Below, one piece after another: positions 22,379 to 58,248 of a stretch of 64,000 nt of DNA. Below the pieces are notes generated by a model. The model saw only the letters and a program-made list of their open reading frames with translations. It made no database searches and had not been told where the DNA came from. The stretch spans positions 3,782,001 through 3,846,000 of the forward strand of contig NC_092672.1 in NCBI RefSeq assembly GCF_964355755.1, read 5' to 3'. A program made the translations under genes and the position numbers. The stretch comes from Antedon mediterranea (lineage: Eukaryota; Echinodermata; Crinoidea; Comatulida; Antedonidae). Each line of letters starts with the position of its first letter. The stretch's first letter is position 1.

Positions 22379-22450
22379 GCCCCAGTGGTCTAATGGTTAG
22401 GACATCTGCATATCAAGCAGGCGGTCCGAGTTCGAGTCTCGGTTGGGGCG
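22379..22450 (+). tRNA. tRNA-like gene, anticodon ATC (Glu-like body)
   Basis: The 72 nt fold into a full cloverleaf. Acceptor GCCCCAG pairs with TTGGGGC (one G-T); D stem GTCT/GGAC has an AATGGTTA loop; anticodon stem TCTGC/GCAGG has loop ATATCAA; there is a 4-nt variable loop; T stem CCGAG/CTCGG has loop TTCGAGT. The discriminator is G. Boxes A and B are intact and five T follow at 22,453. The anticodon reads ATC, nominally Asp (GAU), but the D arm 'GGTCTAATGGTTAGGA' is of the tRNA-Glu kind, one change (T34A) from TTC. It could be a functional tRNA, a decoding-altered pseudo-tRNA, or a SINE progenitor. No second copy was seen here. Confidence 0.7.
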
Positions 22451-50790: not shown

Positions 50791-51040
50791 CTCTACATAA
50801 AGTGTTTTCCTGAGATGACAAATTCGTGTGTTTCATGCCTATAACTGTTAACAGGATACAATAATGAATAATTTATACTGATATAAATGAGGAGGGTCTC
50901 TTAATAGGTGGTCAGTAATAGTAGGCCTACTATTGGTCATACAACACATGCCGTGCGCAATGCCGTATATCTCGTTATTAACATGATAAACAAATTACCC
51001 TATTTAAATTGTGTTAAATCTATAGGCTTTTATACGCTAA

Positions 51041-51402
51041 AGCGTGGTTCCCACTAGCGACGCAGCACAAGGACGTAACGCAACGCAAGTGAATTGACCA
51101 ATCACAAGCGATGGCTTATTCGCTTGTGATTTCTAACTGTCTATAACTTCGCTTGTCATTGGTTAAAACGCTTACGTTGCGTTTACGTCCTTGCGTTACA
51201 TTCTAGTGGGAACCAAGCTTTAAGCGTGGTTCCCACTAGCGACGCAACACAACGACGTAACGCAACGCAAGTGAATTGACCAATCACACGCGATGGCTTA
51301 TTTGCTTGTGATTGCTAACTGTCTATAACTTCGCTTGTCATTGGTTAAAACGCCTGCGTTGCGTTTTACGTCCTTGCGTTACGTTCTAGTGGGAACCAAG
51401 CT
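51041..51402. mobile_element. Two adjacent MITE family B short-subtype copies
   Basis: 51,041-51,220 and 51,223-51,402 are about 95% alike, joined by 'aagctTTAAgcgtgg'. Both have GCGTGGTTCCCACTAGCGAC and TTCTAGTGGGAACCAAGC ends. Confidence 0.85.
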
Positions 51403-51768
51403 TCATTAACATGATAAACAAATTACATTACCCTATTTAAATTGTGTTAAATCTATAGGCTTTTTATAATAATGCAATTACTGTCTGATAAAAAAGAGGT
51501 CGTTTCGGATCTTTCTTCATCTTCCCTTCAGCTATCTTTGTCGATGTACGTAAATGAGTACATGACTTCATAATGTATGTTACGCGTAATGTTGTTATCG
51601 GAGTTTATTAGGGCTATGATTTATAACAGTAATGTTGTCGTAGCTCGGTATATGCTATAATTGGACAGAGAAAAACATTCTACACCGCCAACATCGCCGC
51701 TAAACCAGAGAAATTGTCCTGCTGAATAGTAAACCCTAGGCCTAGCCCAAAGATTGGTGGGCCACTAA

Positions 51769-54164: not shown

Positions 54165-54942
54165 GTAAGTATTTTTTTGTAATTTATTTTTTATTGCGTG
54201 AAACAGATAAGTAGCAACAGTTTGGTATTAGATATCATAAACATATTTTGATTTCGCGTATTACAGTAGTCGGTTTGCCTTGGAGAGATCATTGAATTTT
54301 CAGCGGTGGTGATAAAAAGATCAAAAGGGTTATTTTATTCAGTCCATGCGCAAATCCTTACCGCCAGATACAATGTCTCGTGTTGATGATGCGGTGAAGA
54401 GATGATTATTCCAAATTGTTCATAGATTTACCGCGCAGTAGACGTATAACGTAGCTCAGTAGGCCTACCAAAGTTTTTTTTGTTGGTGGGGAACGCCACA
54501 GAAATTATCGCACTTTTGCCGTTTTTGCTCCTCTTAGATTTCAAGAGTTTGCTGTCGTCCACCGTATACGTGATTTCACAGGTGGATGTTTTCTTCTTTC
54601 TTATTAGGATATGTCCGCTCGCAAATGACTACGGAACCAGCGCAGATTTCATTATCTGCACTTTCCCATCAAATCGATCGGATTTAGTTTAGCCTTTCCT
54701 CGTCTATATCACAGCAATTCCACCGCGGGAGAACTTTGCTCTTGTTCTCGTAATTCAGTTTGGTAATGATTGGTAACAATAATGCAATAACATCGATATC
54801 TTGACTGTAGGCTATCGGGACGTTAAAATCGGACCAAATTTGTCGCCGTGACAATGTATAAATTGTAATGTGGATAATTTTAGAACTGTACATTTGTATT
54901 TACTAATATAATACGAGTATTTTCACAATTTATAATTTCCAG
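54165..54942 (+). other. Candidate 5'UTR intron of the GPCR gene
   Basis: Donor GTAAGTA at 54,165 and acceptor AATTTCCAG ending 54,942. Directly after, a 22-bp unit (gtaccgtgcttcttcaaacc+ag) is present twice in tandem, so a second AG acceptor exists 22 bp downstream at 54,963-54,964. Both lie upstream of the start codon. No cDNA support is available. Confidence 0.35.
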
Positions 54943-54983
54943 GTACCGTGCTTCTTCAAACCAGGTACCGTGCTTCTTCAACC

Positions 54984-55231
54984 ATGGACTTGAATACTAC
55001 CCCGCCATCAACTGATAACTGGACCTGTATTGAGTATCCAGGTGTGGAGCCATTTGCTGTCACACTACACATGGTGCAAAAGATAGTCTGCATCTTCTCG
55101 TTAATTTCAAACATTTTGGTGATTATTATTGTTCTTGGTGATCGCAAGGCGCACACAACAGCCAACCTTCTGATTGTGAACTTGGCCGTATCACAGATAC
55201 TGTTATTAGTAGTCCGGCTGCATTCATTACC
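54984..55231 (+). CDS. Class A GPCR, exon 1 (N-terminus to TM2)
   Basis: ATG at 54,984 opens a frame MDLNTTPPSTDNWTC with two N-glycosylation sequons (N4, N12). TM1 spans about residues 31-52, with the conserved Asn1.50 at N43. TM2 spans 61-83 and has NLAV as in neuropeptide-type receptors, but the position of the near-universal Asp2.50 is Gln (Q71). The exon ends after CC at 55,231, before GTAGGT; exon 2 supplies the third base (Pro83). The frame is open upstream to 54,948 without ATG, so 54,984 is the first usable start. Together with exon 2 the protein is 372 aa. Expected role: plasma-membrane receptor coupling a ligand, probably a peptide, to G proteins. The ligand cannot be told from the sequence. 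Confidence 0.8.
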
Positions 55232-55830
55232 GTAGGTTACATTTTGTTTTTAGTATTATTGTAAATTTAATCAACTGATTTAAAAAGCATTATGATGCGT
55301 GTGTATGAATTAGGCGTGTGCGCGCACCATACTATTTTAAACCGAGTGGAAGTCGAAAGACTTTCAACCGATATTCATTTCTGTGTAAATAACCCTTTCC
55401 ATTCGATTCTAATCCGTCTTTTAAAACTATCGATAATATAATCTAACGCAGTGAACCATGGCATGTTCTGATTGGACAAGATATGTAACTAAGCACTCTG
55501 TATCCATCCAGTCGGTGTTTTAATACACTCGTAGGCTTTAAGGCATGTAATAACTACGACGGGAAGATAACTAACACATTACTAACGAGAAATCACAAAT
55601 TGTGTCTTTACTAATTACATCCATTTTGTAAATTGCGTGTGACGTGTTGAAATACTTATCCGAATAAGTCACTCAAGATTACATAGAGATCTGCATAATC
55701 ATCTTATAATTATCCATATTTAATTATCACATTGTTTAAATGAATTGTTTTGGTTCTATCATTGAGAAATCATTAATAGCAAGTTATTTGCTATATAAAG
55801 TAATACAGTTCAAAGTTTTCACATGACATG

Positions 55831-56405: not shown

Positions 56406-56464
56406 AAATTTTTCATTTCTAGTTGAACAGTATTAATGATGCGTTTTCTACATACATACATATT

Positions 56465-56520
56465 TCACCTGAAGAGTGCGGCCAGCTACATGCTGGTCGT
56501 ACGAAACAAATTTGTAGTGA
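56465..56520 (+). ncRNA. Type I hammerhead ribozyme motif
   Basis: All core nucleotides are present in order. Stem I 5' strand UCAC (56,465-56,468); CUGAAGA (56,469-56,475); stem II of 11 bp (56,476-56,486 with 56,492-56,502, nine Watson-Crick and two G-U pairs, loop UACAU); GAAA (56,503-56,506); a minimal stem III CA/UG with loop AAUU (56,507-56,514); cleavage triplet GUA (56,514-56,516); stem I 3' strand GUGA (56,517-56,520). Self-cleavage is expected after A56516. Known families: Penelope-like elements and metazoan retrozymes carry such hammerheads with very short stem III. The motif sits in sense orientation inside the GPCR intron, flanked by 'tacatacatat' on both sides. No reverse transcriptase is present, so this is a solo remnant or a small non-autonomous element. 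Activity is predicted from sequence only. Confidence 0.85.
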
Positions 56521-56562
56521 TTAAAACAATGAAGTAACCAAGTTTTCTGCTGTTATTTTATT

Positions 56563-56568
<6 letters not shown>

Positions 56569-56606
<38 letters not shown>
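56569..56606. repeat. (TA)n microsatellite
   Basis: About 19 TA dinucleotides, preceded by 'acataca', just downstream of the hammerhead. Confidence 0.95.
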
Positions 56607-56608
<2 letters not shown>

Positions 56609-57377
56609 CCTACTATTATGTATACATTTTCTTTCAATCAATTTTCCGCATTTGGGCCTAATAGGTAATGAGCAAAGGAGCTTATACCACTCAAATTAGC
56701 GAATACGTAATTAAGGCAGTACCAATTTCGTAACCAATAGCAATGATACTTTAAAAAGGTAATTGCGAAATTAAAAATATATAATTGCAAATATGAATGG
56801 CCTACCATTATGTTTTATTTTGATTACGTCATAAGTTCGGCGTGGTTATGTTTACTAATGTTTCTCAAAGATTCTTAATTAACACAAAATACTAATTGTT
56901 TATTGTTATGACTTGCTATCGTGAAATCACAACGTTTGTTTATATTTGCTTATATTGAACATTTTACGCATGCGTAGTGCAATCGAGAAATACAGTAACC
57001 TACGTCCTAAACATGGTGGTTTACGGCACATTTTCAACAATTTGTGTCAGATTGATTGATTGACACATTGAATGTTTGTGAAAGTTATTAGTAGACCATC
57101 AAACCAAATATCTATTTGTTTCACTCTGTTTGCAGTTTTGAGTCAAAAAAGAGAGTAATTTTGTGTTAGTAGTAACCCGATATCGTATCACCGTTGATAA
57201 TGCCTTTTTTTTTTATCGCAATCGAATGTATGCGCGGTACGTTTAAACGCTCACAGATGGAATGTGGTAAATCTACTCACATATTTACTTTTGTATAGAC
57301 CTCACTGAAAAATGAAATTATAAGTTAATTGATGTTATGAAAATAGTTTACATTTCTTTTTAAACATTTTTTTTTAG

Positions 57378-58248
57378 ATTGATTGCAAGTGATATTGGAA
57401 TGACATCATTAAGTTGTAAGCTGTGGAGGGGAGGTATGCATTGGTCGCAGGCCGCCACTGCATTAACGATTTGTACGATAAGTTTAGAAAGACGCCGAGC
57501 AACCAAATCGTTATCGCGTTCTTCTAACATTCCCCAGCGTCAGCTTGCCATAGGTGTAGCATTTATCTGGGTCATAACTCTCGCTGCCAGCTTACGTATG
57601 TTCATCGTCTCCGATATTACAATGCGATATCGTCCAAGTTGCGACGGAGAGCCCGTCACCACGGGTTTCTGTTACCCAGATAGAGAGCCAGGATATGACA
57701 TTTACACGTATTTGTTTCAGGTGTTTTTTTATTTAATACCATTGATAGTTATGAGTGTTGCGTATGGATGCGTTATTTGTTCTTTGAGATATACCTCTAA
57801 TGGGACGTCATTGCAACCAAGCCAGGTAAAACGAATGATCGCGACGCGTCGTAGAGTTTCAGTAACCGTTTTCGTAATTTCTTTAGCATTCTGTATTTTA
57901 TGGTTCCCGTATGTATTTCTTCAATTAATATGGTATGTTGAAGAATTCTCGTTAGGTATAGGTATGATACAAATCTTGTACTTTATTATTATTAGTGAAA
58001 TTCTTATTGAATTCCAAGGTTGCGTCAATGTGTTGACGCTTTGTTTTTTAAGCCAATCTTTTCGTCAAAGCATGCTGCTGTATCTTCGTTTTGTCTACAA
58101 CTGTGTTACAAAGTGTCGGTGTGGCTGCCGGAAAAGCAAGGCAGATGTATACGTTAGAAACGAACCTAAGTACACGCTACAATCGAACAATGACCACCGC
58201 GCAACAAGGAATACAAATGTAACTTGTGAACAATCGTCACAGCTCTAG
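57378..58248 (+). CDS. Class A GPCR, exon 2 (ECL1 to C-terminus)
   Basis: The exon starts after TTTTTTTTTAG and runs 290 codons to TAG at 58,246-58,248. Residues are numbered in the joined 372-aa protein. Cys3.25 is C96, and its usual partner in ECL2 is C171 or C181. The TM3 end reads SLERRRAT, so DRY is ERR (E120-R122). W147 is Trp4.50 and P204 is Pro5.50 with Y212 as Tyr5.58. TM6 reads CILWFPY with W258 and P260 (toggle Trp and Pro6.50). TM7 ends GCVNVLTLCFLSQSFR: Asn7.49 is kept but Pro7.50 is Val and Tyr7.53 is Leu. The tail has a Cys cluster (CVTKCRCGC), which could be palmitoylated. The layout suggests the galanin/allatostatin/QRFP-like peptide receptor group, but divergent. Frame, splice phase and seven helices are clear; the subfamily is not. 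Confidence 0.85.

Follow-up and report, generated by a model that had tools for sequence, protein, structure and literature searches.

Origin of a hammerhead ribozyme motif in a receptor gene intron of the crinoid Antedon mediterranea

A hammerhead ribozyme motif in the intron of a GPCR gene raises the questions of how it came to lie there and whether the gene makes use of it. We followed up one such motif in the genome of Antedon mediterranea. The window, i.e. the whole stretch of DNA that was analysed, comprises 64,000 nucleotides (contig NC_092672.1, positions 3,782,001 to 3,846,000 of the forward strand), and coordinates refer to it unless a contig or locus is named. As set out below, the motif is very probably the hammerhead of a Penelope-like retrotransposon (PLE) that inserted a 5'-truncated copy of its 3' end into the intron.

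The motif and the gene around it

Type I hammerheads are defined by the core CUGANGA, GAAA and NUH at the cut, by three stems, and by being open at stem I. The window motif has these core letters, three stems and an open stem I, and is made up of the following parts:

56465-56520, + strand: type I hammerhead ribozyme motif of family A, with the predicted cut after A56516
56465-56468, + strand: stem I 5' strand UCAC, paired with GUGA 56517-56520 over 4 bp
56469-56475, + strand: CUGAAGA core, from the core pattern search
56476-56502, + strand: stem II hairpin, 56476-56486 paired with 56492-56502, 11 bp with two G-U pairs, loop UACAU 56487-56491
56503-56506, + strand: GAAA core, from the core pattern search
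56506-56515, + strand: stem III ACA-AAUU-UGU, A56506 C56507 A56508 paired with U56513 G56514 U56515, 3 bp, loop AAUU
56516-56520, + strand: H17 (A56516) followed by the stem I 3' strand GUGA, from sequence and core pattern

Checked against the window sequence and the core pattern, the first-pass annotation of this DNA was right in the coordinates and in every core position. It had also reported a 4-bp stem I, which is present as UCAC/GUGA, and a very short stem III, which has 3 bp and the loop AAUU. Stem II, described there as a perfect 11-bp stem, does have 11 bp but is not a perfect Watson-Crick helix, since two of its pairs are G-U. By sequence and by the covariation described below the motif is a hammerhead, and its RNA may cleave itself. 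When stems were disregarded, a loose core pattern occurred on average 0.30 times per shuffled window and was present in 18 of 100 shuffles. With stems required, one strand of 1.92 Mb of Markov sequence gave no match scoring at least 10 (one match scored 6); the window site scores 17.

The motif is flanked by two segments of a receptor open reading frame (ORF):

54936-55235, + strand: GPCR ORF segment from the N terminus to TM2, upstream exon (7tm_1), with a donor GT near 55235
57378-58248, + strand: GPCR ORF segment from TM3 to the C terminus with stop, downstream exon (7tm_1), with the acceptor AG at 57376-57377

The two 7tm_1 matches had E values of 9.5e-6 (25.7 bits, below the Pfam cut-off of 30.5) and 7.1e-19, and the best PDB matches of the downstream segment were bombesin-family and endothelin receptors. 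By prediction, the host gene belongs to the rhodopsin-family GPCRs. Because 7tm_1 is matched on the + strand on both sides and splice-like GT and AG are present, the motif is predicted to be intronic and in sense with the gene, which bears out its first description. Elsewhere in the window, a tRNA match was found at 22379-22450, and three more lie in a repeat block of the longer motif copy L106 (111-182, 497-568 and 3337-3408); these matches are perhaps a tRNA-derived repeat. At 51040-51403 a 182-bp unit is present in two tandem copies with 95% matches.

Element copies and sister families

Further copies, for which a genome search had been proposed at first pass, were abundant. The motif pattern, which leaves stem II free, had 105 exact matches in the genome (55 forward, 50 reverse) and its reversed-pattern control had none; most of the matches listed repeat the sequence of the window site, and some are variants of it. 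A common tail occurred exactly 145 times, in 123 cases preceded by the letters of stem III and the cut site. Family A loci were taken from the first 100 listed of these 145 tail matches and from a few matches in two related pattern listings, a sample that stops short of contig C9 and covers C7-C8 in part.

In longer family A copies an ORF lies directly upstream of the motif. Read by eye, it contains YRDD, which we take to be reverse-transcriptase-like, and what we assume to be a GIY-YIG-like pattern. Searched as a single sequence and as a profile, the ORF gave no meaningful match to a Pfam family or a PDB chain, so that the assignment of reverse transcriptase and GIY-YIG rests on these by-eye motifs; they suggest that the ORF encodes a PLE reverse transcriptase with endonuclease. 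The earlier remark that the ribozyme comes without a reverse transcriptase does not hold for the element. It describes the window copy, which lacks one because it is a 5'-truncated tail:

56460-56563, + strand: 5'-truncated, short-tail end fragment of about 100 bp, assigned to a Penelope-like retrotransposon (family A) by copy comparison
56449-56458, + strand: direct repeat TACATACATA, left copy, a possible target site duplication but also microsatellite-like
56563-56572, + strand: direct repeat TACATACATA, right copy, running into (AT)n

Positions 56460-56560 are 100% identical to 42 other genomic places among the matches listed; in this DNA search, 43 of the 50 matches listed (window included) were 100% identical over at least 101 bp, with 40 of 200 candidates scored. 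Given this 101-bp identity, the window insertion appears to be young and one of many, and the 3' end of the element would have landed in AT-rich, microsatellite-like intron DNA. The 5' break of the window copy lies 57 nt upstream of the cut. Sixty-seven family A copies match exactly in the core and in the 5' strand of stem II; 62 of them possess a possible outer stem I strand and the window copy is one of the five without it (counted by eye). With 15/15 nt of context L106 folds with the outer stem I helix, whereas the window copy cannot. Covariation was not found for this outer helix (UGUUUUA/UAAAACA), the pairing of which rests on the fold of one family. The window copy could cut the GPCR intron, perhaps weakly, as only the 4-bp stem I is kept; its ribozyme is probably a passenger, and for the receptor gene the hammerhead is most likely a bystander.

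A separate observation concerns CTGATGAAGGGCTAGTGTTGCCCGAAAGCTC, of which the genome holds 732 exact copies. By eye, it resembles a minimal hammerhead of the PLE type whose stem I has 3 bp (UGC/GCA), and it adjoins the (AT)n of some copies of family A and of families B and C described next (e.g. L012, L095, L103).

The genome was also searched at the protein level. Of 571 candidates 84 were scored; the listing holds 89 matches with identities as low as 50%, from which 20 divergent loci were fetched. A strict motif script found a downstream hammerhead in nine of the 20, all belonging to family B, which has 56% protein identity to family A. Seven further loci (L086-L089, L093, L097, L103) belong to family C, with 61-63% protein identity to family A and, when read by sequence, a hammerhead in which U-U stands at the stem II base. 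Reading by sequence also added a hammerhead with one core change in L104 and damaged family B hammerheads in L092, L094 and L099.

Families A, B and C have the hammerhead in the same position, with the same core and the same ACA/UGU stem III; stems I and II are different and yet complementary. In a comparison of one copy per family, for which the base pairs were put in manually, stems I and II each had two positions changed on both sides, and stem III was invariant. Stems I and II are supported by covariation across these three divergent families, family C having its U-U at the stem II base. Identity in the flanking 3' UTR was 0.43-0.60, compared with shuffled means of 0.42-0.52, and all six comparisons fell within the range of 100 shuffles; the hammerhead-to-hairpin flanks of the A-C and B-C comparisons (0.60 and 0.58) were slightly above their shuffled mean of 0.52. 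In the layout that we propose for the element, the hammerhead is placed 3' of the ORF and ahead of a hairpin (GCUCUAC...GUAU-GAGCAC) that is common to the three families and starts 50-56 nt after the cut.

Locus L084 (C2:13343800-13344700, - strand) represents a family D, a divergent and perhaps older tail with a hammerhead-like motif. The stem III of this motif is unchanged, its stem II differs and is bulged by eye, and its stem I has only two pairs; the motif did not yield a hammerhead fold and was left out of covariance model R1. The neighbouring sequence might be coding.

Tails, paired copies and insertion

Copies of the element fall into two tail classes: short tails stop just before the hairpin, and long tails extend past it. 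Single copies comprised 34 with a short and 25 with a long tail. Head-to-head pairs combined one short-tail with one long-tail arm in 28 of 29 cases (27 by script; L057 was reassigned to this class by eye because of a 2-nt insertion), L044 being the sole long/long pair. Against the frequencies in single copies, this short/long pairing has a P of about 3e-8. The arm lengths of head-to-head pairs correlate (Spearman 0.71). Some pairs carry the same variants on both arms (C2:18351323 and 18354212; C9:15473375 and 15473459), and in others just one arm carries a variant (e.g. C9:15009169). A run of (AT)4 or longer was present within 140 nt past the tail anchor in 101 of 111 anchored copies. Two features of Penelope-like elements, namely inverted head-to-head copies with a tail on one arm and insertion into AT-rich DNA, are thus found here. 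These features fit a filing of the element as Penelope-like, and PLEs are known to bear hammerheads.

Among unusual arrangements, L006, L022 and L061 are very long near-perfect palindromes of two head-to-head copies, with 99.8% over 2791 bp for L006. L087 departs from the usual head-to-head layout: its family C tails lie tail-to-tail with a short AT repeat between them.

The family C locus C3:30813200-30816668, the most complete sister copy examined, has hammerheads in direct orientation on either side of a 760-codon frame, 2451 bp apart. Of the three family C loci that were extended, it is the one with this arrangement; another has an inverted copy and the last has none. No direct hammerhead repeats around the ORF (pLTR-like) were found in the sampled family A loci. 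Because same-orientation hammerheads flank the ORF in this copy, a unit-length RNA could be freed from a through-transcript: cutting at both hammerheads would release it, and transcripts of the element may be processed in this manner. The 5' junctions of the copies showed no pile-up at the cut site, with three of 115 anchored copies within 1 nt of it (L024 and both arms of L071); L061 has its junction within 3 nt, and L024 looks like a small deletion because hammerhead sequence is kept upstream. Copies made from cleaved RNA should have their 5' junctions concentrated at the cut, and the lack of such a concentration argues against cleaved RNA as the usual insertion template.

In an Anolis element of this class, reverse transcription starts at two sites, AT-rich DNA is cut, both strands are cleaved and extended, and a hammerhead is present (PMC11167929). 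That hammerhead was dispensable for insertion in vitro and cut only with protein present (PMC11167929). The short-tail and long-tail ends of the present copies would fit the two reported start sites. In the cited part of PMC3846280, Penelope-like copies are most frequently head-to-head with a tail on one inverted repeat, and self-priming is proposed. A more far-reaching proposal, which we put forward tentatively and consider rather unlikely, is that in this PLE clade the monomer-cutting, three-stem hammerhead makes up a single conserved module together with the hairpin that lies 50-56 nt downstream. The hammerhead would set the RNA unit and the hairpin would mark two reverse-transcription starts, both being used per insertion, one per target strand, so that one arm of a head-to-head pair would have a tail and the other none.

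Alternative readings and known systems

Apart from the Penelope-like origin, we weighed whether the motif could be a chance resemblance or a dead structure devoid of catalytic ability. A covariance score below threshold had been named at first pass as the result that would speak against a hammerhead, and formally this is what was obtained: Rfam RF00163 did not report the window site at the gathering threshold, nor at E values up to 10. The motifs of L106, L090 and L086 were likewise unmatched by RF00163 up to an E of 1, for which reason RF00163 looks insensitive to the hammerhead subgroup of these families; it is a search tool and not part of the hammerhead definition. A covariance model built from three family B sequences and one family C sequence, with family A left out, matched a single place in the window, the motif site, at 30.3 bits and a rough E of 2.4e-6, and with filters off the next best match in 44 kb had 12.0 bits. 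This leave-family-out match and the related genomic copies outweigh the RF00163 miss. The sister families, moreover, keep core and stem III and show compensatory changes in stems I and II, between flanks whose identity lies within the shuffled range.

Folding was consistent with the hammerhead at short range: it is the minimum free energy (MFE) fold of the 56-nt segment alone (-21.1 kcal/mol, z -3.55) and of the 76-nt segment 56455-56530. With flanks of 15/15, 30/20 and 60/60 nt, the gap between MFE and hammerhead was 0.1, 3.2 and 1.8 kcal/mol for the window copy and 0.0, 0.0 and 4.3 kcal/mol for L106. At 60/60 nt the hammerhead was thus not the MFE fold in either copy, a point in favour of a dead structure. 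We had expected the window copy to fold worse than L106, and dropped this expectation, as its gap was larger at 30/20 and smaller at 60/60. Since the order of the two copies flips with flank length, folding energies do not decide activity. On the family comparison and the leave-family-out match, we regard chance or decay as highly improbable.

A genome-wide RF00163 search gave two sub-threshold matches, L108 and L109 (73 of 33128 candidates scored), and sub-threshold matches of this kind also appear in 11 of 14 prokaryote control genomes. L109 had no hammerhead by the strict motif script. L108 (C10:10407700-10408150, - strand) holds a tandem of two classical type I hammerheads at a spacing of 117 bp, with 29.4 and 27.5 bits (Rfam cut-off 34) and an exact pattern that is unique to these two in the genome. 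In principle it could yield a 117-nt circle; its 117-bp unit is shorter than the 150-450 bp of the retrozyme units described in the cited part of PMC7229834.

The GPCR gene might also have taken the hammerhead into its own service, with cuts in the pre-mRNA acting on splicing, a role that has been proposed for conserved intronic hammerheads of amniotes. Its sense orientation, the predicted intron and the intact core agree with this, and the conserved intronic hammerheads of amniote RECK and CTCL, as cited from PMC6155905, offer a precedent. The window copy, however, shares its 101 bp with 42 other listed places, is without the outer stem I strand that 62 of 67 family A copies keep, and does not have the hammerhead as its MFE fold at 30/20 or 60/60 nt of flank, the latter applying to L106 as well. 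Recruitment by the gene is therefore very hard to credit.

A metazoan non-LTR retrozyme, i.e. a small non-autonomous element spreading via circular RNA from tandem hammerheads, would likewise account for a non-coding fragment that carries a type I hammerhead whose stem III is short and closed, and most classical animal type I hammerheads are placed in retrozymes (PMC7229834, in the part cited). At one family A locus, L004, the motif occurs twice as a direct tandem with a spacing of 337 bp. This two-copy repeat is the sole short direct tandem seen in family A, and short ORF-less tandem units were otherwise not seen; two-copy loci are mostly head-to-head (29 pairs) and not direct tandem arrays. 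In each of the families A, B and C there are longer copies with the motif attached at the 3' end of an ORF. With an ORF attached in three families and only one short direct tandem, a retrozyme fits poorly; we rejected it as very unlikely. The short stem III had been called typical of Penelope-like and retrozyme hammerheads alike, of which the Penelope-like link is supported and the retrozyme link fits poorly.

The Penelope-like reading explains the origin of the intronic hammerhead and supplies three hammerhead-bearing retrotransposon families in one genome. The role of hammerheads in Penelope-like elements is called unknown in the cited passages of PMC7761336, and three families with changed stems and a preserved core offer material for testing it.

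The known systems can be compared as follows, within the parts of the sources cited. Amniote intronic hammerheads (RECK, CTCL; PMC6155905) are also of type I and lie within introns, but they are conserved across species at one locus, whereas the present motif lies in a young insertion of an element with many copies. Metazoan non-LTR retrozymes (PMC7229834) share the type I hammerhead and the short capped stem III; they are short ORF-less tandem repeats, while the present element has an ORF and its copies, where paired, are mostly inverted. PLE hammerheads (Cervera and de la Pena 2014; PMC6155905, PMC7761336, PMC11167929) agree in being type I and in their place in the element's non-coding end, and PLEs agree in an ORF resembling reverse transcriptase and GIY-YIG, multiple copies, AT-rich targets and head-to-head copies with one tailed arm. 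According to the cited sections of the reviews PMC6155905 and PMC7761336, PLE hammerheads are usually minimal and without helix III. Families A, B and C differ from that description to a modest extent, having a closed stem III of 3 bp with a loop of 3-4 nt and, in family A, a stem II of 11 bp.
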